Part shown: piece by piece, positions 3,135 through 58,588 of the stretch
Layout: each line of letters starts with the position of its first letter
How positions within the stretch are numbered: the first letter of the stretch is position 1
Origin: Cristatella mucedo
Lineage: Eukaryota > Bryozoa > Phylactolaemata > Cristatellidae
Length of the DNA stretch: 64,000 nucleotides
Assembly: GCA_009760855.2 (NCBI GenBank)
Contig: WPIO01000109.1
Coordinates: 529,001-593,000, forward strand
Direction: 5' to 3'
Notes under the pieces: generated by a model
Told to the model about the DNA's origin: nothing
The model's database searches: none
Seen by the model: only the letters and a program-made list of their open reading frames with translations
Position numbers and translations under genes: made by a program

Positions 3135-3837
3135 GTTGTGCCGGTAGAACGCATGCTTCTACAGCCAGATGAGTTACTGGCATACCTGCACGTGCTATCA
3201 GGCGATTGCAGCTGGTGCAAAACTCCTCAGCTAGGCTTGTCTGTCGTGAGCGTCGCAGTTGCCACATTACTCCACTTCTCGCCGACCTGCACTGGCTACC
3301 AGTCAAGCAACGGATTGACTTCAAGGTTTTGTTGCTCACTTTTAGGTCACTTCATTCTTTGGCTCCACCCTATCTGTCAGATATGCTCCTCATCAGGCCA
3401 AGCATAGTGCCACCTGCTTTTCAGAATCCAATAGTCTACAAATACCAGTACAAACCTCAAATTCTTTAGAGACCGTGCATTTAGTTCGTATACTCCTAAA
3501 GTCTGGAAGTCCCTCCCGACCTGCGTCAGACATCTCCTGACCTGACCACATCCAAAAAGAATTTAAAAACCCACCCATTTAGGACAGCATTTAGTGGGTC
3601 CCTATTATTCGTCCTTGATGTGCTTATGCGTGCTGACACTGTGCATGCTGCCCCTAACCACATTTGCATGCTGACCCTGTGCATGTCACCCCTAACTATG
3701 TTACTCATTTTGTTTGTTTATCAAGCATGATATTACCCACCATGCAATTGCATTTCACTTTACAGCAAATGTAAAGTGCCTAGAGAGAGATTGAGTTCTC
3801 TGAGTGTGCTTTATCAAGTGCATTATTATTCTTATAT
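3135..3837 (+). repeat. LINE-1 ORF2 C-terminal remnant with 3' UTR
   Basis: Broken frames give the conserved C-terminal block of CR1/L2-type LINE ORF2 proteins: RLQLVQNSSARLVC, then LHWLPVKQRIDFKVLLLTF, then RSLHSLAPPYLSDM. After a frameshift come a GDRAFSSY-like segment, a SLPTC-like segment and a TAFSGS ending. The 3' UTR and hairpin tail follow, with ATT near 3822-3830. It is 5'-truncated and frameshifted, so not functional. Confidence 0.85.
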
Positions 3838-12150: not shown

Positions 12151-12415
12151 AAATTACATTCAACCTCATTGTCAGAGAATTGTCAGAGACGTATTGTCTT
12201 TTCAAAGATAAATGATGATGATGAGACCAGCCCATGTGCAGTAGGGTCCTTATTAAACTCAAAGTCTTGAACCCCACATCTTAGTCATTAAAGTTTTCAT
12301 TTAAGAAACAAGTCCCCATTTACCTTACTTATGCAATAATAAGGTGAATGGTCTTATAATATATGAATATATTAAACCTAGTATAAAAACCCCACTTAAC
12401 AATTTGCAATTGAAA
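12151..12415. other. AT-rich left flank of the array
   Basis: No feature recognised. It does not resemble the sequence before the later unit junctions, so the array's left edge lies at about 12416. Confidence 0.4.
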
Positions 12416-14324: not shown

Positions 14325-16683
14325 ATGATGACTACAGCTTTCGCCATTGTCGCCGTACTGATGATCAGTCTGGTGTCGTCTGCAGTAAGTTGATATGAGC
14401 CATGTCAAATTAAATTATCGACTATGGACAGTAAGATATGCTGACCGAGGCTCTCAGGTTAGCTTCTTACTTAGCGATCCCTGTTATGATCTAGCTGATT
14501 GCTACTCTTGCTTCTTTGTCAATAACGTAGACAAGATCAGGAAGTCCATCTCTAAATTGCCAGCCGCCCACATGGAATTCCGGCCCTCAATTCTTTACGG
14601 AACCTCAATGTCTACTTTCAGAGGAAGTCACTAGTGACCTAATTCTAAAGTTCATATGCCAATCAAACAAGACAACTGCTTCTCTGAACCCTATTCCCAC
14701 TGTCCTGCTTCCACGGTGCATAGATCTGCTGCTGTCATGCATAAATAATATCATTAATATCTCATTATCCTGAGGTCATGTCCGAGCAAATTTCAAAAAG
14801 GCTGTAGTTAAGCCCCTACTCAAGAATGCCACACTAGACCAAGAGAACAAGAGCACCTTTAGCAGAGTCCCCATTCTACCGTCCTTATCAAAGATACTGG
14901 AACGAGTCGTGGCAAACCAACTGAAGTCGTATATTGAAACTACATTTTAAGTTCAAGTCTGGTTTTAGAGCTAATCACTCCACAGAATCAGATCAGCATT
15001 CATTGAGCTGTATACTGACCTACTCATAAATAGAGACTTAGGTAGAGTGTCTTTGCTTGCTTCACTCGATGTTTTTGCAGCTTTCGATAATCACATCTCC
15101 CATAGGCATAACAGGCACTGCCTTGCAACGGTGAAGGCTCGGGTCCTAGCTACATGTAAGACTCTAGAGTACTGCTGTGAACGGACAAAGATCGGGCGAG
15201 GAACCTCTAAAGTTTGAGCAACGTTAGGAATCTTTGCTTGGTCTCATTTATTTCATGACTAATACTCTCCTTCTTGGCGATTCGACTGCCAAGCACAATC
15301 TAGGCTTTCACTTCTGTGCAGGTGACATTCAGTTGGGAAGGATAACGCTCAAAATCAGTTCTGCCAGCATATTTCCCATTGAATCTATACAAAACAGAAC
15401 CGTCATGCTCCAAAGTGACCTTTTTTAAGCAACCACATCAGCTCCACAGTCAAGCATGCCTACTTTCAGATGCATAAGATCACTAAAATAATTCTGGCTT
15501 GTTCAGATAGGGATTCCACATCTAAGAAGGTCCATGCATTTCTGACGTTCCGTCTTGACTTGTGTACCTCACTGCTTGCTGGTCTACTTGTTTGTGCAAT
15601 CAGGCGCTTACAGCTTGTGCAAAACTCTGCAGCTACGCTTGTCTGTCGTGAGCATCGTCGTTGCCCGACCACACCTCTTCTCGCCAACCTGCACTGGCTC
15701 CCAGTCCAGCAAAGCATCGATTTCAAGGTTTTGTCGCTCACTTTTAGATCCGTAGATTTTTTTTCGGCTTCAGCAAACCTATCAGGTCTACGGCCCCACT
15801 AGGCAAAGCCTCTCTCCACACGCCATTGGGATTCTAACTATTTCACTATACCTCTTAGAAATATAAAATCCTTTGGAGACCATGCCTTTAGTTTGTACGC
15901 TCCAAGAGCACGGAACTCGCTGCCGACTTGCATCACCACATCTCGTAACTTTTATTACACATTTAAAAAGAAACTAAAATTGCATTTAGTTTGGACAGCA
16001 TTTAGTGGGTCCGAGCGATTCGTCCTGTACGTGCTCGTGTTCACTTACACTGGGCATGCTGCCACTAACCGTACTAGCATGCGAAGCCTGTGCATTTCAC
16101 CCTAACCATGCTATTCTATCTTTGATTCAAGTACGATTACCAACTATTTTATCGTGCTTTCCTTAAGAAAAATGAAAATTGCCTAGGGAGAGATTCAGTT
16201 AGCTGAGGGTGCTATATTAAGTGTATTATCATTTTCACTATTGACTATCTTGTGGCGAGCTACGGTAAAGCTGAAAACAATTTTTTGTGAACCCAGGACC
16301 CGAAACATGTTTTTTCATTTTCCATGCAATGTATATTGATTGATCATACCAAACAGTGATTGACTTTCGCAAATTATCTAAATTTCAGAGTTTGCAGGAA
16401 ACTGCCGACCTAAGCCCTGAGCTGGAAGAGGAAATGAAAGAGTTTTTCACTGGTAATCACATCGGACGCAATACTGGTTAAACGAGAGAAGTTGTTCAAT
16501 GATTTTATTTAGTGATTTTTTACAGCTGGATATATTACTTAATAAAGTTCCAATTCTCCTCACGTTTCAGAATACGAAGAAAAACAAGAGATTCTGGGGA
16601 TTTCTATTGAGGGCCGCTACCAAAGTGGTTCCAAAGCTTATCAAAGCAGTGATAAATCATTAGTAGTAGGTGACAATACCTGA
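14325..16683 (+). pseudogene. Secreted peptide gene copy 1, frameshifted
   Basis: Three coding exons: 14325-14384, 16389-16452 and 16571-16683, all with GT-AG introns. The last five bases upstream of intron 1 and the donors and acceptors match the other copies. Exon 1 encodes a 20-residue signal peptide (Lys2 replaced by Met); exon 2 is identical to the other copies and encodes the acidic propeptide. In exon 3 an A run is five long (16580-16584) instead of four. The frame shifts just before the Lys-Arg processing site and the basic amphipathic peptide is not made. Reading continues to TGA at 16681, giving a predicted 78 residues with a polar C-terminus ending GDNT. A poly(A) signal AATAAA follows at 16731. 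It may be a pseudogene, a divergent product, or a homopolymer assembly error. Confidence 0.65.
14470..16235 (+). mobile_element. Dead LINE-1 ORF2 fragment in intron 1 (unit 1)
   Basis: Broken frames give, in order, an FFVNNVDKIRKSI-like segment; the fingers region (FKKAVVKPLLKNATLD, then LSKILERVVANQLKSYIE); LGRVSLLASLDVFAAFD; a palm with HNLGFHFCAGDIQL where YADD is expected; then LHWLPVQQSIDFKVLSLTF and the TAFSGS-like C-terminus. A tail resembling LINE-1 ends at about 16235. Stops, frameshifts and the lost YADD motif show it is inactive. It lies in the same orientation as the host gene. Confidence 0.85.
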
Positions 16684-17188: not shown

Positions 17189-17340
<152 letters not shown>

Positions 17341-17347
17341 TAGCGTG

Positions 17348-17847
17348 CCTACTTTTAGGTCTCTTCATTCTATGGCTCCAGCCTATCTTTCAGATATACT
17401 ACCCCATCAGGCAAAGCATCGTACCACTCGCTTTTCGGAATCCAACAGTCTAGAAATACCTCGTACAAACCTTAAATCCTTTGGAGACCGTGCATTTAGC
17501 TCGTATGCTCCCACAGCCTGGAACTCCCTCCCGACCTGCATCAGAACATCCCCTGACCTGACCACATTTAAAAGAAACTTAAAAACATACCTATTTAGGA
17601 CAGCATTTAGTGGGTCCTTGTGATTCGTCCTCGATGTGCTTATGCGTGCTGACACTGTTCATGCTGCCACTAACCACATTTGCATGCTGACCCAGTGCAT
17701 GTAACCCCTAACCATGTTGTTTTTCAAGCATGATTTTACTTACTATTCTATTGCGTATCACTTTGCAGCAAATGTAAAGCGCCTAGAAAGAGATTAAGTT
17801 CTCTGAGGGCGCTTTATCAAGTGCAATATTATTATTATTATTATTAC
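17348..17847 (+). mobile_element. LINE-1 5'-truncated 3' end (unit 1)
   Basis: An uninterrupted frame from the GA tract to about 17623 carries FRSLHSMAPAYLSDILP, FGDRAFSSYAPTAWNSLPTC and FKRNLKTYLFRTAFSGSL, the C-terminus of LINE ORF2. After the 3' UTR comes a hairpin (AAAGCGCC at 17776-17783 with GGCGCTTT at 17808-17815; AGAGA at 17789 with TCTCT at 17800), then (ATT)n to 17847. Better preserved than the intronic LINE, so probably younger. Confidence 0.9.
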
Positions 17848-23780: not shown

Positions 23781-24085
23781 TAAAGCTGCCCACTCTGATC
23801 CCTTCACCAAAGCAGTCTGTAGCTCTTTGTGCTGCTAAAAATAATTTGTCCGAAGTTCTAAGCTTTTATGATTTCAGAGCCACTGTTACCAAGAAAATCC
23901 ACAGTTAAAAGTACGCACAGGGGAATCGAGCAGACATTGACGTACATCTGCTGGCGCCTGGCCATCTGATACAGATAGTAGGCAAAGCTTTCTTTTTCTC
24001 GTAACACCGTGGCTTTCGCGGAACTCAGCTAAGCAGTCAGCTAGTCGAAAGACGTAATACAAGTTACTACCCGTATAGCCAGTAG

Positions 24086-24146
24086 TATATTAACAGCAAC
24101 GCAGTCGTAGATTAGTGCAGTTCTGGCTTGATATCCCAGCAAAAGG
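24086..24146 (+). promoter_or_regulatory. Candidate TATA box and 5' noncoding exon
   Basis: TATATTAA (24086-24093) lies about 60 bp upstream of a strong donor, GTGAGT at 24147. The last base before ATG exon 1 may be an acceptor (GATATAATTTTAG just before AAAAATG). This would make a short noncoding first exon and a roughly 560-bp 5' UTR intron. TATATTAA recurs at 13635, 34307, 44512 and 54892, with donors at 13695, 34367, 44572 and 54952. This is inferred from motifs only; the near-identity of the units means its conservation proves nothing. Confidence 0.25.
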
Positions 24147-24714
24147 GTGAGTAGCTCTAAAGGAGAACGTCCTCGTCTAGAGGAAAAGTATCACAGTTGG
24201 GTGTTGTTCGGCCTGTCAAACGGTGTGTGTGCGTGGTCTATTAGCTGGCTACTAAGTCGTGCTCCAAAACGAGACGTGTCTTTAAAGTTTAGGGACTGGC
24301 TCTTAATTTAAATTATTTAGTGTCATTCCTTCCGGAAAATCCTTTGCCTGTGCATGCTTACGAATGAAATTTGCACAAAATTGAATGTGCTCCATTCAGG
24401 TATCAGGTATTCTTCAGGTGTGCTGATTATTATAGCTGAAATCGGCCGTTCTCAGCAATGGTGCTTAGAGGTAACTTCATAAGCTATTGCAATCGCGACG
24501 ACTTCGAAACACTAGTAAGATGCTAATTGCAATTTCTCAATCGCAGTCGTCTCCCCCAAACTTGTAAATTACCGGTTTCCTTGCCATTTAAACAATTAAA
24601 CTTTACAACCGAAATTGCGAATGTCAACTAGCCTACGCGATTGTATGAAACACTTTGGGTGGCTGCTTTCTTGACAAGGAGGATATCTAAGTCCTGTGAT
24701 ATAATTTTAGAAAA

Positions 24715-27054
24715 ATGAAGACTACAGCTTTCGCCATTGTCGCCGTACTGATGATCAGTCTGGTGTCGTCTGCAGTAAGTTGATATGAGCCATGTCAAAT
24801 TAAATTATATCGACTATGGACAGTAAGATATGCTGACCGAGGCTCTCAGGTTAGCTTCTTACTTAGCGATCCCTGTTATGATCTAGCTGATTGCTACTCT
24901 TGCTTCTTTGTCAATAACATAGACAAGATCAGGAAGCCCATGTCTAAATTGCCAGCCGCCCACATGGAATTCCGGCCCTCAATTCTTTACGGAACCTCAA
25001 TGTCTACTTTCAAAGGAAGTCACTAGTGACCTAATTCTAAAGTTCATATGCCAATCAAACAAGACAACTGCTTCTCTGAACCCTATTCCCACTGTCCTGC
25101 TTCCGCGGTGCATAGATCTGCTGCTGTCATGCATAAATAATATCATTAATATCTCATTATCCTGAGGTCATGTCCGAGCAAATTTCAAAAAGGCTGTAGT
25201 TAAGCCACTACTCAAGAATGCGACACTAGACCAAGAGAACAAGAGCACCTTCAGCAGAGTCCCCATTCTACCGTCCTTATCAAAGATACTGGAACTAGTC
25301 GTGGCAAACCAACTGAAGTCGTATATTGAAACTACATTTTAAGTTCAAGTCTGGTTTTAGAGCTAATCACTCCACAGAATCAGATCAGCATTCATTGAGC
25401 TGTATACTGACCTACTCATAAATAGAGACTTAGGTAGAGTGTCTTTGCTTGCTTCACTCGATGTTTTTGCAGCTTTCGATAATCACATCTCCCATAGGCA
25501 TAACAGGCACTGCCTTGCAACGGTGATGGCTCGGGTCCTAGCTACATGTAAGACTCTAGAGTACTGCTGTGAACGGACAAAGATCGGGCGAGGAACCTCT
25601 AAAGGTTGAGCAACGTTAGGAATCTTTGCTTGGTCTCATTTATTTCATGACTAATACTCTCCTTCTTGGCGATTCGACTGCCAAGCACAATCTAGGCTTT
25701 CACTTCTGTGCAGGTGACATTCAGTTGGGAAGGATAACGCTCAAAATCAGTTCTGCCAGCATATTTCCCATTGAATCTATACAAAACAGAACCGTCATGC
25801 TCCAAAGTGACCTTTTTTTAAGCAACCACATCAGCTCCACAGTCAAGCATGCCTACTTTCAGATGCATAAGATTACTAAAATAATTCTGGCTTGTTCAGA
25901 TAGGGATTCCACATCTAAGAAGGTCCATGCATTTCTGACGTTCCGTCTTGACTTGTGTACCTCACTGCTTGCTGGTCTACTTGTTTGTGCAATCAGGCGC
26001 TTACAGCTTGTGCAAAACTCTGCAGCTACGCTTGTCTGTCGTGAGCATCGTCGTTGCCCGACCACACCTCTTCTCGCCAACCTGCACTGGCTCCCAGTCC
26101 AGCAAAGCATCGATTTCAAGGTTTTGTCGCTCACTTTTAGATCCGTTGATTTTTCGGCTTCAGCAAACCTATCAGGTCTACGGCCCCACTAGGCAAAGCC
26201 TCTCTCCACACGCCATTGGGATTCTAACTATTTCACTATACCTCTTAGAAATATAAAATCCTTTGGAGACCATGCCTTTAGTTTGTACGCTCCAAGAGCA
26301 CGGAACTCGCTGCCGACTTGCATCACCACATCTCGTAACTTTTATTACACATTTAAAAAGAAACTAAAATTGCATTTAGTTTGGACAGCATTTAGTGGGT
26401 CCGAGCGATTCGTCCTGTACGTGCTCGTGTTCACTTACACTGGGCATGCTGCCACTAACCGTACTAGCATGCGAAGCCTGTGCATTTCACCCCTAACCAT
26501 GCTATTCCTATCTTTGATTCAAGTACGATTACCAACTATTTTATCGTGCTTTCCTTAAGAAAAATGAAAATTGCCTAGGGAGAGATTCAGTTAGCTGAGG
26601 GTGCTATATTAAGTGTATTATCATTTTCACTATTGACTATCTTGTGGCGAGCTACGGTAAAGCTGAAAACAAATTTTTTTTTTTCTTAGGACCCGAAACA
26701 TGTTGTTTCATTTTCCATGCAATGTATATTGATTGATCATACCAAACAGTGATTGACTTTCGCAAATTATCTAAATTTCAGAGTTTGCAGGAAACTGCCG
26801 ACCTAAGCCCTGAGCTGGAAGAGGAAATGAAAGAGTTTTTCACTGGTAATCACATCGGACGCAATACTGGTTAAACGAGAGAAGTTGTTCAATGATTTTA
26901 TTTAGTGATTTTTACAGCTGGATATATTACTTAATAAAGTTCCAATTCTCCTCACGTTTCAGAATACGAAGAAAACAAGAGAATCTGGGGATTTCTATTG
27001 AGGGCCGCTACCAAAGTGGTTCCAAAGCTTATCAAAGCAGTGATAAATCATTAG
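24715..27054 (+). CDS. Secreted cationic amphipathic peptide precursor, copy 2
   Basis: Coding exons 24715-24774, 26782-26845 and 26963-27054; introns of 2007 and 117 nt with GT-AG borders (phase 0, then phase 1). The predicted product is 71 residues. Residues 1-20 are a signal peptide (Lys2, a hydrophobic core around AIVAVLMISL, then VSSA at the cleavage site, exactly at the exon 1 border). Residues 21-46 are an acidic propeptide (nine Glu and one Asp). Lys47-Arg48 is a dibasic processing site, also an E-x-K-R quadruplet like those used in spider peptide precursors. Residues 49-71 are the mature segment: it starts Ile-Trp-Gly, has basic residues at mature positions 7, 11, 15 and 18, proline at 14 and no cysteine. 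AATAAA lies at 27122. A secreted membrane-active peptide (defence or venom) is inferred from this architecture; I recognise no specific family. Start choice: the only ATG with a signal peptide, spliced in frame. Confidence 0.8.
24862..26627 (+). mobile_element. Dead LINE-1 ORF2 fragment in intron 1 (unit 2)
   Basis: Same fragment as in unit 1, with one longer open part (about 188 codons, 25626-26192) spanning the palm to the LHWLPVQQ block, because a T-run length differs. It still has CAGD in place of YADD. Confidence 0.85.
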
Positions 27055-27454
27055 TAGTAGGTGACAATACCTGAAATTCAGCTATACAGCAAAATGTACT
27101 AGTTTCAGATCTATTAATTGCAATAAATTATCGTCAAATTACACATTCATATTGCATTTCGGCCGTGTAGAGCTACAATGCTCGATAAAATGAGGTAATT
27201 GAGGAAAACTAAAAATAGAGAATAACTTGAACTAGCTGGCTGGTTATAAAAATATGCTCGTCTGCAATACATTCAGCACAGAAACACACCTTTGATACTT
27301 CTTGATGCCAGAGGGCAGAAATCGCTTCCAGCTGATTGCAGTATTCAGTACGATAACAGCAAACTGTACCGAGCATGGTGACCTGTGAACGACTCCTAGT
27401 CAGATAATATTGTAGAGGCTCGTTGGCCATAGCCGCACGGCTAGGATGCAGAGG

Positions 27455-27456
<2 letters not shown>

Positions 27457-27534
<78 letters not shown>

Positions 27535-34934: not shown

Positions 34935-37274
34935 ATGAAGACTACAGCTTTCGCCATTGTCGCCGTACTGATGATCAGTCTGGTGTCGTCTGCAGTAAGT
35001 TGATATGAGCCATGTCAAATTAAATTATCGACTATGGACAGTAAGATATGCTGACCGAGGCTCTCAGGTTAGCTTCTTACTTAGCGATCCCTGCTATGAT
35101 CTAGCTGATTGCTTCTCTTGCTTCTTTGTCAATAACATAGACAAGATCAGGAAGCCCATGTCTAAATTGCCAGCCGCCCACATGGAATTCCGGCCCTCAA
35201 TTCTTTACGGAACCTCAATGTCTACTTTCAAAGGAAGTCACTAGTGACCTAATTCTAAAGTTCATATGCCAATCAAACAAGACAACTGCTTCTCTGAACC
35301 CTATTCCCACTGTCCTGCTTCCGCGGTGCATAGATCTGCTGCTGTCATGCATAAATAATATCATTAATATCTCATTATCCTGAGGTCATGTCCGAGCAAA
35401 TTTCAAAAAGGCTGTAGTTAAGCCACTACTCAAGAATGCGACACTAGACCAAGAGAACAAGAGCACCTTCAGCAGAGTCCCCATTCTACCGTCCTTATCA
35501 AAGATACTGGAACTAGTCGTGGCAAACCAACTGAAGTCGTATATTGAAACTACATTTTAAGTTCAAGTCTGGTTTTTAGAGCTAATCACTCCACAGAATC
35601 AGATCAGCATTCATTGAGCTGTATACTGACCTACTCATAAATAGAGACTTAGGTAGAGTGTCTTTGCTTGCTTCACTCGATGTTTTTGCAGCTTTCGATA
35701 ATCACATCTCCCATAGGCATAACAGGCACTGCCTTGCAACGGTGATGGCTCGGGTCCTAGCTACATGTAAGACTCTAGAGTACTGCTGTGAACGGACAAA
35801 GATCGGGCGAGGAACCTCTAAAGTTTGAGCAACGTTAGGAATCTTTGCTTGGTCTCATTTATTTCATGACTAATACTCTCCTTCTTGGCGATTCGACTGC
35901 CAAGCACAATCTAGGCTTTCACTTCTGTGCAGGTGACATTCAGTTGGGAAGGATAACGCTCAAAATCAGTTCTGCCAGCATATTTCCCATTGAATCTATA
36001 CAAAACAGAACCGTCATGCTCCAAAGTGACCTTTTTTTTAAGCAACCACATCAGCTCCACAGTCAAGCATGCCTACTTTCAGATGCATAAGATTACTAAA
36101 ATAATTCTGGCTTGTTCAGATAGGGATTCCACATCTAAGAAGGTCCATGCATTTCTGACGTTCCGTCTTGACTTGTGTACCTCACTGCTTGCTGGTCTAC
36201 TTGTTTGTGCAATCAGGCGCTTACAGCTTGTGCAAAACTCTGCAGCTACGCTTGTCTGTCGTGAGCATCGTCGTTGCCCGACCACACCTCTTCTCGCCAA
36301 CCTGCACTGGCTCCCAGTCCAGCAAAGCATCGATTTCAAGGTTTTGTCGCTCACTTTTAGATCCGTAGATTTTTCGGCTTCAGCAAACCTATCAGGTCTA
36401 CGGCCCCACTAGGCAAAGCCTCTCTCCACACGCCATTGGGATTCTAACTATTTCACTATACCTCTTAGAAATATAAAATCCTTTGGAGACCATGCCTTTA
36501 GTTTGTACGCTCCAAGAGCACGGAACTCGCTGCCGACTTGCATCACCACATCTCGTAACTTTTATTACACATTTAAAAAGAAACTAAAATTGCATTTAGT
36601 TTGGACAGCATTTAGTGGGTCCGAGCGATTCGTCCTGTACGTGCTCGTGTTCACTTACACTGGGCATGCTGCCACTAACCGTACTAGCATGCGAAGCCTG
36701 TGCATTTCACCCCTAACCATGCTATTCCTATCTTTGATTCAAGTACGATTACCAACTATTTTATCGTGCTTTCCTTAAGAAAAATGAAAATTGCCTAGGG
36801 AGAGATTCAGTTAGCTGAGGGTGCTATATTAAGTGTATTATCATTTTCACTATTGACTATCTTGTGGCGAGCTACGGTAAAGCTGAAAACAAATTTTGTG
36901 TGAACCCAGGACCCGAAACATGTTGTCTCATTTTCCATGCAATGTATATTGATTGATCATACCAAACAGTGATTGACTTTCGCAAATTATCTAAATTTCA
37001 GAGTTTGCAGGAAACTGCCGACCTAAGCCCTGAGCTGGAAGAGGAAATGAAAGAGTTTTTCACTGGTAATCACATCGGACGCAATACTGGTTAAACGAGA
37101 GAAGTTGTTCAATGATTTTATTTAGTGATTTTTACAGCTGGATATATTACTTAATAAAGTTCCAATTCTCCTCACGTTTCAGAATACGAAGAAAACAAGA
37201 GATTCTGGGGACTTCTATTGAGGGCCGCTACCAAAGTGGTTCCAAAGCTTATCAAAGCAGTGATAAATCATTAG
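34935..37274 (+). CDS. Secreted cationic amphipathic peptide precursor, copy 3
   Basis: Coding exons 34935-34994, 37002-37065 and 37183-37274; introns of 2007 and 117 nt. A 71-residue precursor with signal peptide and propeptide identical to copy 2 and the same Lys47-Arg48 site. The mature segment (coded at 37203-37271) differs at two positions: position 1 Ile to Phe and position 4 Phe to Leu. Both changes stay hydrophobic, and the four basic residues and the proline are unchanged. AATAAA at 37342. This is the only intact copy with a different mature peptide. The function is inferred as for copy 2. Confidence 0.8.
35080..36847 (+). mobile_element. Dead LINE-1 ORF2 fragment in intron 1 (unit 3)
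   Basis: Same fragment; the T run near 36034 is longer, so the open pieces break at different points than in units 2 and 5. Confidence 0.85.
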
Positions 37275-37805: not shown

Positions 37806-38411
<606 letters not shown>

Positions 38412-45139: not shown

Positions 45140-47499
45140 ATGAAGACTACAGCTTTCGCCATTGTCGCCGTACTGATGATCAGTCTGGTGTCGTCTGCAG
45201 TAAGTTGATATGAGCCATGTCAAATTAAATTATCGACTATGGACAGTAAGATATGCTGACCGAGGCTCTCAGGTTAGCTTCTTACTTAGCGATCCCTGCT
45301 ATGATCTAGCTGATTGCTTCTCTTGCTTCTTTGTCAATAACATAGACAAGATCAGGAAGCCCATGTCTAAATTGCCAGCCGCCCACATGGAATTCCGGCC
45401 CTCAATTCTTTACGGAACCTCAATGTCTACTTTCAAAGGAAGTCACTAGTGACCTAATTCTAAAGTTCATATGCCAATCAAACAAGACAACTGCTTCTCT
45501 GAACCCTATTCCCACTGTACTGCTTCCACGGTGCATAGATCTGCTGCTGTCATGCATAAATAATATCATTAATATCTCATTATCCTGAGGTCATGTCCGA
45601 GCAAATTTCAAAAAGGCTGTAGTTAAGCCACTACTCAAGAATGCGACACTAGACCAAGAGAACAAGAGCACCTTCAGCAGAGTCCCCATTCTACCGTCCT
45701 TATCAAAGATACTGGAACGAGTCGTGGCAAACCAACTGAAGTCGTATATTGAAACTACATTTTAAGTTCAAGTCTGGTTTTAGAGCTAATCACTCCACAG
45801 AATCAGCATCAGCATTCATTGAGCTGTATACTGACCTACTCATAAATAGAGACTTAGGTAGAGTGTCTTTGCTTGCTTCACTCGATGTTTTTGCAGCTTT
45901 CGATAATCACATCTCCCATAGGCATAACAGGCACTGCCTTGCAACGGTGATGGCTCGGGTCCTAGCTACATGTAAGACTCTAGAGTACTGCTGTGAACGG
46001 ACAAAGATCGGGCGAGGAACCTCTAAAGTTTGAGCAACGTTAGGAATCTTTGCTTGGTCTCATTTATTTCATGACTAATACTCTCCTTCTTGGCGATTCG
46101 ACTGCCAAGCACAATCTAGGCTTTCACTTCTGTGCAGGTGACATTCAGTTGGGAAGGATAACGCTCAAAATCAGTTCTGCCAGCATATTTCCCATTGAAT
46201 CTATACAAAACAGAACCGTCATGCTCCAAAGTGACCTTTTTTAAGCAACCACATCAGCTCCACAGTCAAGCATGCCTACTTTCAGATGCATAAGATTACT
46301 AAAATAATTCTGGCTTGTTCAGATAGGGATTCCACATCTAAGAAGGTCCATGCATTTCTGACGTTCCGTCTTGACTTGTGTACCTCACTGCTTGCTGGTC
46401 TACTTGTTTGTGCAATCAGGCGCTTACAGCTTGTGCAAAACTCTGCAGCTACGCTTGTCTGTCGTGAGCATCGTCGTTGCCCGACCACACCTCTTCTCGC
46501 CAACCTGCACTGGCTCCCAGTCCAGCAAAGCATCGATTTCAAGGTTTTGTCGCTCACTTTTAGATCCGTTGATTTTTCGGCTTCAGCAAACCTATCAGGT
46601 CTACGGCCCCACTAGGCAAAGCCTCTCTCCACACGCCATTGGGATTCTAACTATTTCACTATACCTCTTAGAAATATAAAATCCTTTGGAGACCATGCCT
46701 TTAGTTTGTACGCTCCAAGAGCACGGAACTCGCTGCCGACTTGCATCACCACATCTCGTAACTTTTATTACACATTTAAAAAGAAACTAAAATTGCATTT
46801 AGTTTGGACAGCATTTAGTGGGTCCGAGCGATTCGTCCTGTACGTGCTCGTGTTCACTTACACTGGGCATGCTGCCACTAACCGTACTAGCATGCGAAGC
46901 CTGTGCATTTCACCCTAACCATGCTATTCTATCTTTGATTCAAGTACGATTACCAACTATTTTATCGTGCTTTCCTTAAGAAAAAGGAAAATTGCCTAGG
47001 GAGAGATTCAGTTAGCTGAGGGTGCTATATTAAGTGTATTATCATTTTCACTATTGACTATCTTGTGGCGAGCTACGGTAAAGCTGAAAACAAATTTTTT
47101 GTGAACCCAGGACCCGAAACATGTTGTTTCATTTTCCATGCAATGTATATTGATTGATCATACCAAACAGTGATTGACTTTCGCAAATTATCTAAATTTC
47201 AGAGTTTGCAGGAAACTGCCGACCTAAGCCCTGAGCTGGAAGAGGAAATGAAAGAGTTTTTCACTGGTAATCACATCGGACGCAATACTGGTTAAACGAG
47301 AGAAGTTGTTCAATGATTTTATTTAGTGATTTTTACAGCTGGATATATTACTTAATAAAGTTCCAATTCTCCTCACGTTTCAGAATACGAAGAAAAACAA
47401 GAGAGAATCTGGGGATTTCTATTGAGGGCGGCTACCAAAGTGGTTCCAAAGCTTATCAAAAGCAGTGATAAATCATTAGTAGTAGGTGACAATACCTGA
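45140..47499 (+). CDS. Secreted peptide precursor copy 4, altered C-terminus
   Basis: Coding exons 45140-45199, 47203-47266 and 47384-47499; introns of 2003 and 117 nt. Signal peptide and exon 2 propeptide are identical to copy 2. In exon 3 an extra A (run 47393-47397) and an extra GA (47401-47406) together add one codon. The frame is regained, but Lys-Arg becomes Glu-Arg; the quadruplet Lys-Gln-Glu-Arg still fits the acidic-x-Arg processing pattern. The first 18 residues of the mature segment match copy 2. Then an extra A (run 47458-47461) shifts the frame, replacing the last five residues with twelve polar ones ending GDNT. Predicted total 79 residues, stop at 47497-47499, AATAAA at 47547. 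All three indels are in short repeats, so assembly error must be excluded; otherwise this is a natural variant. Confidence 0.65.
45285..47049 (+). mobile_element. Dead LINE-1 ORF2 fragment in intron 1 (unit 4)
   Basis: Same fragment. Here one frame stays open through 45749-46033 (HFKFKSGFRANHSTESASAF, then LGRVSLLASLDVFAAFD), because the unit 4 sequence has AATCAGCATCAGC where other units have AATCAGATCAGC. Confidence 0.85.
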
Positions 47500-48010: not shown

Positions 48011-48190
<180 letters not shown>

Positions 48191-55519: not shown

Positions 55520-57852
55520 ATGAAGACTACAGCTTTCGCCATTGTCGCCGTACTGATGATCAGTCTGGTGTCGTCTGCAGTAAGTTGATATGAGCCATGT
55601 CAAATTAAATTATCGACTATGGACAGTAAGATATGCTGACCGAGGCTCTCAGGTTAGCTTCTTACTTAGCGATCCCTGTTATGATCTAGCTGATTGCTAC
55701 TCTTGCTTCTTTGTCAATAACATAGACAAGATCAGGAAGCCCATGTCTAAATTGCCAGCCGCCCACATGGAATTCCGGCCCTCAATTCTTTACAGAACCT
55801 CAATGTCTACTTTCAGAGGAAGTCACTAGTGACCTAATTCTAAAGTTCATATGCCAATCAAACAAGACAACTGCTTCTCTGAACCCTATTCCCACTGTAC
55901 TGCTTCCACGGTGCATAGATCTGCTGCTGTCATGCATAAATAATATCATTAATATCTCATTATCCTGAGGTCATGTCCAAGCAAATTTCAAAAAGGCTGT
56001 AGTTAAGCCCCTACTCAAGAATGCCACACTAGACCAAGAGAACAAGAGCACCTTTAGCAGAGTCCCCATTCTACCGTCCTTATCAAAGATACTGGAACGA
56101 GTCGTGGCAAACCAACTGAAGTCGTATATTGAAACTACATTTTAAGTTCGTCTGGTTTTAGAGCTAATCACTCCACAGAATCAGATCAGCATTCATTGAG
56201 CTGTATACTGACCTACTCATAAATAGAGACTTAGGTAGAGTGTCTTTGCTTGCTTCACTCGATGTTTTTGCAGCTTTCGATAATCACATCTCCCATAGGC
56301 ATAACAGGCACTGCCTTGCAACGGTGAAGGCTCGGGTCCTAGCTACATGTAAGACTCTAGAGTACTGCTGTGAACGGACAAAGATCGGGCGAGGAACCTC
56401 TAAAGTTTGAGCAACGTTAGGAATCTTTGCTTGGTCTCATTTATTTCATGACTAATACTCTCCTTCTTGGCGATTCGACTGCCAAGCACAATCTAGGCTT
56501 TCACTTCTGTGCAGGTGACATTCAGTTGGGAAGGATAACGCTCAAAATCAGTTCTGCCAGCATATTTCCCATTGAATCTATACAAAACAGAACCGTCATG
56601 CTCCAAAGTGACCTTTTTTTAAGCAACCACATCAGCTCCACAGTCAAGCATGCCTACTTTCAGATGCATAAGATTACTAAAATAATTCTGGCTTGTTCAG
56701 ATAGGGATTCCACATCTAAGAAGGTCCATGCATTTCTGACGTTCCGTCTTGACTTGTGTACCTCACTGCTTGCTGGTCTACTTGTTTGTGCAATCAGGCG
56801 CTTACAGCTTGTGCAAAACTCTGCAGCTACGCTTGTCTGTCGTGAGCATCGTCGTTGCCCGACCACACCTCTTCTCGCCAACCTGCACTGGCTCCCAGTC
56901 CAGCAAAGCATCGATTTCAAGGTTTTGTCGCTCACTTTTAGATCCGTTGATTTTTCGGCTTCAGCAAACCTATCAGGTCTACGGCCCCACTAGGCAAAGC
57001 CTCTCTCCACACGCCATTGGGATTCTAACTATTTCACTATACCTCTTAGAAATATAAAATCCTTTGGAGACCATGCCTTTAGTTGTACGCTCCAAGAGCA
57101 CGGAACTCGCTGCCGACTTGCATCACCACATCTCGTAACTTTTATTACACATTTAAAAAGAAACTAAAATTGCATTTAGTTTGGACAGCATTTAGTGGGT
57201 CCGAGCGATTCGTCCTGTACGTGCTCGTGTTCACTTACACTGGGCATGCTGCCACTAACCGTACTAGCATGCGAAGCCTGTGCATTTCACCCTAACCATG
57301 CTATTCTATCTTTGATTCAAGTACGATTACCAACTATTTTATCGTGCTTTCCTTAAGAAAAAGGAAAATTGCCTAGGGAGAGATTCAGTTAGCTGAGGGT
57401 GCTATATTAAGTGTATTATCATTTTCACTATTGACTATCTTGTGGCGAGCTACGGTAAAGCTGAAAACAAATTTTTTGTGAACCCAGGACCCGAAACATG
57501 TTGTTTCATTTTCCATGCAATGTATATTGATTGATCATACCAAACAGTGATTGACTTTCGCAAATTATCTAAATTTCAGAGTTTGCAGGAAACTGCCGAC
57601 CTAAGCCCTGAGCTGGAAGAGGAAATGAAAGAGTTTTTCACTGGTAATCACATCGGACGCAATACTGGTTAAACGAGAGAAGTTGTTCAATGATTTTATT
57701 TAGTGATTTTTACAGCTGGATATATTACTTAATAAAGTTCCAATTCTCCTCACGTTTCAGAATACGAAGAAAACAAGAGAATCTGGGGATTTCTATTGAG
57801 GGCGGCTACCAAAGTGGTTCCAAAGCTTATCAAAGCAGTGATAAATCATTAG
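55520..57852 (+). CDS. Secreted cationic amphipathic peptide precursor, copy 5
   Basis: Coding exons 55520-55579, 57580-57643 and 57761-57852; introns of 2000 and 117 nt. The predicted 71-residue precursor is identical to copy 2; exon 3 differs only by a silent GCC to GCG change, shared with copy 4. Lys47-Arg48 precedes the 23-residue basic amphipathic segment coded at 57781-57849. AATAAA at 57920. Function inferred as for copy 2. Confidence 0.8.
55665..57427 (+). mobile_element. Dead LINE-1 ORF2 fragment in intron 1 (unit 5)
   Basis: Same fragment, with a 188-codon open part at 56427-56993 as in unit 2. GTGAAGGC near 56326 is shared with unit 1; units 2-4 have GTGATGGC. Confidence 0.85.

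Positions 57853-58377: not shown

Positions 58378-58588
<211 letters not shown>

Follow-up and report, generated by a model that had tools for sequence, protein, structure and literature searches.

Can three short exons, set within a repeated stretch of DNA, be taken as the gene for a secreted, membrane-active peptide? The question arises at positions 24715–27054 of the 64-kb window (the whole stretch of DNA analysed here, to which all coordinates refer), where splicing would yield a small precursor with a basic C-terminal peptide. We consider it rather likely, with a probability of about 0.72, that an animal-like genome carries here a genuine gene, amplified in tandem, whose product would be a secreted, Lys-Arg-cleaved helical peptide that permeabilises membranes, either in host defence or as a venom component.

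Exon chain and predicted precursor

The gene at these positions, hereafter copy B, lies on the plus strand. Exon 1 (24715–24774, 60 bases) ends in phase 0 at a GTAAGT donor and encodes a signal-like peptide of 20 residues, in which a lysine close to the N-terminus precedes a hydrophobic core and small residues form the end; judged by the exon border and by its appearance, this stretch fits a signal peptide. After intron 1 (24775–26781, 2007 bases, GT–AG), exon 2 (26782–26845, 64 bases) starts in phase 0 behind a TTTCAG acceptor, ends in phase 1 and encodes most of an acidic spacer. Its donor, GTAATC, is weaker than that of exon 1. Intron 2 is 117 bases long and is again of the GT–AG type. Exon 3 (26963–27054, 92 bases), likewise preceded by TTTCAG, comprises the end of the spacer, Lys-Arg, the codons of a 23-residue basic amphipathic peptide (26983–27051) and a TAG stop, directly followed by two more TAG codons. 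A polyadenylation-type signal, AATAAA (27122–27127, plus strand), follows 68 bases past the stop, and this spacing is equal in all five copies of the gene described below.

Splicing at the predicted junctions 24774/26782 and 26845/26963 would thus join the three exons into a 71-residue precursor with a signal-like N-terminus, an acidic spacer, Lys-Arg and a cysteine-free 23-residue peptide. A sequence-only reading of this DNA had proposed the same gene, and its exon coordinates, phases and GT–AG borders were all reproduced exactly from the sequence; the order that it gave for the precursor was recovered both by splicing and by the peptide calculations.

Some variation of the transcript may be envisaged. 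In all five copies the motif TTTTAG ends four bases 5′ of the ATG, which leaves room for a possible untranslated exon further upstream. A second possible acceptor is present nine bases into exon 2 in copies B, C and E, and its use would remove the residues SLQ. If intron 2 were retained, the frame as read from the sequence (26846–26940) would add a different, short C-terminus, with an AATAAA further on in the intron, and a second isoform is therefore possible.

Properties of the mature peptide and the spacer

The two halves of the precursor are of opposite charge, with a net charge of +4 for the 23-residue peptide and of −9 for the 26-residue spacer. The hydrophobic moment of the mature peptide reaches 0.65 in its best 18-residue segment and is 0.48 for the whole peptide, a value that was equalled or beaten by 0.76% of 20,000 shuffles of the same composition. 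On a helical wheel, Arg7, Lys11, Lys15 and Lys18 fall on one face, and Phe4 is found on that charged face too. AlphaFold2, run without an alignment on the 30-residue exon-3 piece, returned a single helix spanning residues 2–28 with a mean pLDDT of 94.7, a result to be read in the light of the fact that AlphaFold commonly gives helix for short peptides. Position 14 of the mature peptide is a proline. Proline acts as a hinge in several lytic helices, and Pro14 could, by analogy, do the same here.

A tandem array with five copies

The sequence-only reading had described the gene singly. The gene itself stands, but it is one of five copies, two of them frame-broken, in a tandem array of head-to-tail units of about 10.2–10.4 kb. 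The array (12415–64000, plus strand) has its left edge near 12415 and its right edge beyond the window, and its aligned pieces are 95.6–99.3% identical. Five units are in view, each with one gene copy, all on the same strand. Besides copy B (24715–27054), two copies are intact: copy C (34935–37274; exons 34935–34994, 37002–37065 and 37183–37274), in which the mature peptide differs from that of copy B by two conservative replacements (Ile to Phe at position 1 and Phe to Leu at position 4), and copy E (55520–57852; exons 55520–55579, 57580–57643 and 57761–57852), the protein of which is identical to that of copy B. In copy A (14325–16663; exons 14325–14384, 16389–16452 and 16571–16663) the frame of exon 3 is lost, and a single base differs in exon 1, changing one residue. 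In copy D (45140–47479; exons 45140–45199, 47203–47266 and 47384–47479) the frame of exon 3 is disturbed and the C-terminus altered. Both frame losses come from small length differences within exon 3, and copies A and D may be either pseudogenes or assembly errors. The donor and acceptor bases are unchanged in all five copies, and exon 2 is 100% identical throughout. A loose tblastn search with the mature segment gave no convincing extra copy among the matches listed.

A few hundred bases past each gene copy lies a GA microsatellite (17191–17335, 27457–27531, 37810–37912, 48015–48175 and 58381–58572). Its length differs in every unit, which tells against a single stretch merely duplicated by the assembler; other assembly faults are possible. 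In the upstream flank (23999–24653 in the coordinates of copy B), copy A is much more divergent from its four counterparts than it is in other parts, and this divergence stops about 60 bases before the ATG, which suggests a putative conversion or crossover border upstream of that gene copy.

Variation among the copies

Exons 1 and 2 together carry no event of change among copies B–E, as against about two expected by hand from the mean of the 92-base window counts (Poisson chance about 0.14). In exon 3 of the same four copies, seven events were counted as placed by MAFFT, and six on a recount in which two substitutions were better taken as length changes. Outside simple repeats, 169 of 8825 overlapping 92-base windows, a set that includes those over exon 3 itself, hold at least seven events, and 290 of 8825 hold at least six. 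Counted per base, the variation in exon 3 exceeds that in either intron and in the 200 bases that follow the exon. Such an excess is not expected of a coding exon under simple purifying selection, and no coding constraint is apparent among the copies. Positive selection was considered as the cause of the excess and was not retained: windows of equal or greater change occur in the proportion given above, and of the three clean substitutions in exon 3 only two change a residue. It is suggested rather than demonstrated. The copies of the array are so nearly identical that selection is not measurable from them.

Search for relatives

The protein search that the sequence-only reading had proposed was run on the 71-residue product. 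In a collection of 5.8 billion proteins, with UniRef and EukProt among its sources, no homologue was retrieved at E up to 10, in a search that needed exact 5-residue words and in which one candidate shared such words. Against the PDB, the precursor gave one insignificant match (E 0.55) and the mature peptide none. Nothing scored above cut-off in Pfam for the precursor, the exon-3 pieces or the mature peptide, nor in NCBIfam, which is built for bacteria and archaea; in viral contigs, none of 16 pattern matches was confirmed. Fragments of the peptide, searched as text, yielded no mention in open-licence PubMed Central papers. The earlier view that the peptide belongs to no named family is consistent with the protein, Pfam, NCBIfam and PDB searches, each of which has a limited reach.

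The only Pfam family to appear at E up to 10 for the 23-residue peptide was PF08018, a frog antimicrobial family (E 0.084). Its scores, 13.5 bits for the 23-residue peptide of copy B and 13.7 bits for the 30-residue piece of copy C, compare with a cut-off of 21.2. When the query was copy B's exon-3 piece of 30 residues, no Pfam family was returned and the PF08018 match was gone.

Discussion

Our best reading of the locus is a lineage-specific, tandemly amplified gene for a linear cationic peptide of antimicrobial or cytolytic function. Linear cationic amphipathic peptides of this kind evolved many times, and it is probably the family itself that is new, the type (a cationic linear defence or venom peptide) being already well known. 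If the gene is transcribed and spliced as predicted, the signal peptide of exon 1 would direct the precursor into the secretory pathway, where the acidic spacer would mask the basic segment and probably hold the peptide inactive. A protease of the furin or prohormone-convertase type would then cleave behind Lys-Arg, releasing the 23-residue peptide, which might form an amphipathic helix on the membrane and permeabilise it. The sequence shows the exon chain and its repetition, the charge pattern and a predicted helix, whereas animal origin and each step from transcription and splicing to secretion, cleavage and membrane activity are inferred. Against this reading stand the two broken copies among five, the lack of apparent coding constraint among the copies with an exon 3 more variable than its surroundings, the weak GTAATC donor, the position of Phe4 on the charged face, the loss of the PF08018 match with the longer copy B query and the lack of a homologue in the searches.

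It might be asked whether the gene is anything other than splice-like sites lined up by chance, which the array then multiplied five-fold. The repetition would then give no independent support, and indeed the units are too alike for the five-fold recurrence of the splice sites to count as independent evidence: the gene regions of the other units are 98.5–99.3% identical to copy B. The pattern was, moreover, picked post hoc. Chains of the same layout were sought on both strands of 3151 third-order Markov simulations modelled on positions 1–27447 of the window (27.4 kb), with thresholds chosen after the gene had been seen and in simulated DNA without real repeats. A looser chain occurred in 184 of the 3151, whereas seven reached the middle threshold and none the observed stringency. 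On both strands of the real 64-kb window, the chain search returned only copies B, C and E at all three thresholds, and no other gene of this layout outside the array copies. The signal-like stretch also ends at an exon border, and a chance origin appears to us very unlikely. The array could, on the other hand, descend from a gene that was once real and has by now become, through segmental duplication, mostly a set of pseudogenes with little or no product. Such decay would agree with the loss of the exon 3 frame in two of the five copies, with the reverse-transcriptase fragment inside intron 1, and with an exon 3 that changes no less than its surroundings, and rather more; three copies are nevertheless intact and all splice sites are kept, and we regard a largely dead array as quite improbable.

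A live gene might also encode a secreted signalling peptide, a neuropeptide or hormone, which would be cut at Lys-Arg in the same way and act on a receptor instead of membranes. The grammar of the precursor (signal, spacer and dibasic site) is shared by both kinds of peptide. A single peptide per precursor, the absence of a C-terminal glycine for amidation, the long basic amphipathic helix and the tandem amplification into near-identical copies all point away from signalling, albeit none of them decisively, and we consider a signalling role unlikely. A membrane-active peptide remains our preferred reading.

Several known systems resemble a locus that would make such a peptide. The active peptides of frog skin are made in the order signal, acidic spacer, Lys-Arg and amphipathic peptide, and share a conserved signal/propeptide domain that is itself a Pfam family. 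The order of the modules is the same here and the mature part weakly matches PF08018, below threshold, but the precursors of copies B and C gave no Pfam match to the signal/propeptide family at E up to 10.

In spider venoms, according to PMC8290080, the simple precursors of linear peptides consist of a signal of 18–24 residues, a propeptide, a processing motif, a single peptide and a stop; the processing quadruplet has Arg at −1 and Glu at −2, −3 or −4, and 88.6% of the 812 peptides covered there derive from complex multi-peptide precursors. In copies B, C and E, the residues E-N-K-R (Arg at −1, Glu at −4) agree with the quadruplet rule, and a signal of 20 residues, as judged from the exon border and the appearance of the stretch, would fall within the spider range. 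No sequence relative was found, and the quadruplet match may well be a convergent grammar and is no proof of kinship. According to PMC10945409, the arminins are restricted to the genus Hydra, with paralogues clustered through tandem duplication, and most Hydra antimicrobial peptides have a bipartite charge distribution and a complex cysteine pattern. Bipartite charge and tandem clustering are alike here, whereas the complex cysteine pattern of most of those peptides is absent; no sequence match surfaced in the protein search, restricted as it was to shared 5-residue words. The mussel myticalins, as described in PMC12294457, have in common with the present gene a cysteine-free cationic peptide, a dibasic site, three exons, a multigene family and, in their case, many pseudogenes. 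In myticalins, however, the cationic part is central with an anionic extension at the C-terminus, and exon 1 is untranslated, so that the order is the reverse of that seen here, where exon 1 is translated and the anionic part precedes the dibasic site.

It is tempting to speculate that the three exons correspond roughly to modules (signal, inhibitor and warhead) of an undescribed, lineage-restricted family, in which recombination would homogenise the first two while the peptide exon gathers variants. We consider this doubtful; if true, it would make the locus a small engine for peptide diversification. Gene finders easily overlook tiny multi-exon genes that sit in arrays rich in repeats. Provided that it is transcribed, the locus would yield a natural family of membrane-active peptides that is probably unrecorded, and its near-identical copies would allow the homogenisation and decay of such genes to be followed.

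Other content of the window

No tRNA was detected in the window by ARAGORN with the bacterial code, and no Rfam match was obtained at gathering scores. Ten long ORFs in or beside the units gave no Pfam match except four below cut-off, all from one GA-repeat ORF, and in another scan six ORFs gave nothing above the Pfam cut-off. Intron 1 harbours a decayed, LINE-like reverse-transcriptase fragment (25620–26555, with an ORF at 25620–26189) that recurs in each unit. Related DNA occurs at 3174–3830, at 17351–17842 and in copies of the latter. The intron fragment has 67 reverse-transcriptase relatives, of which the three with an organism name are all coelacanth proteins (UniRef) and most others unnamed metagenome proteins.
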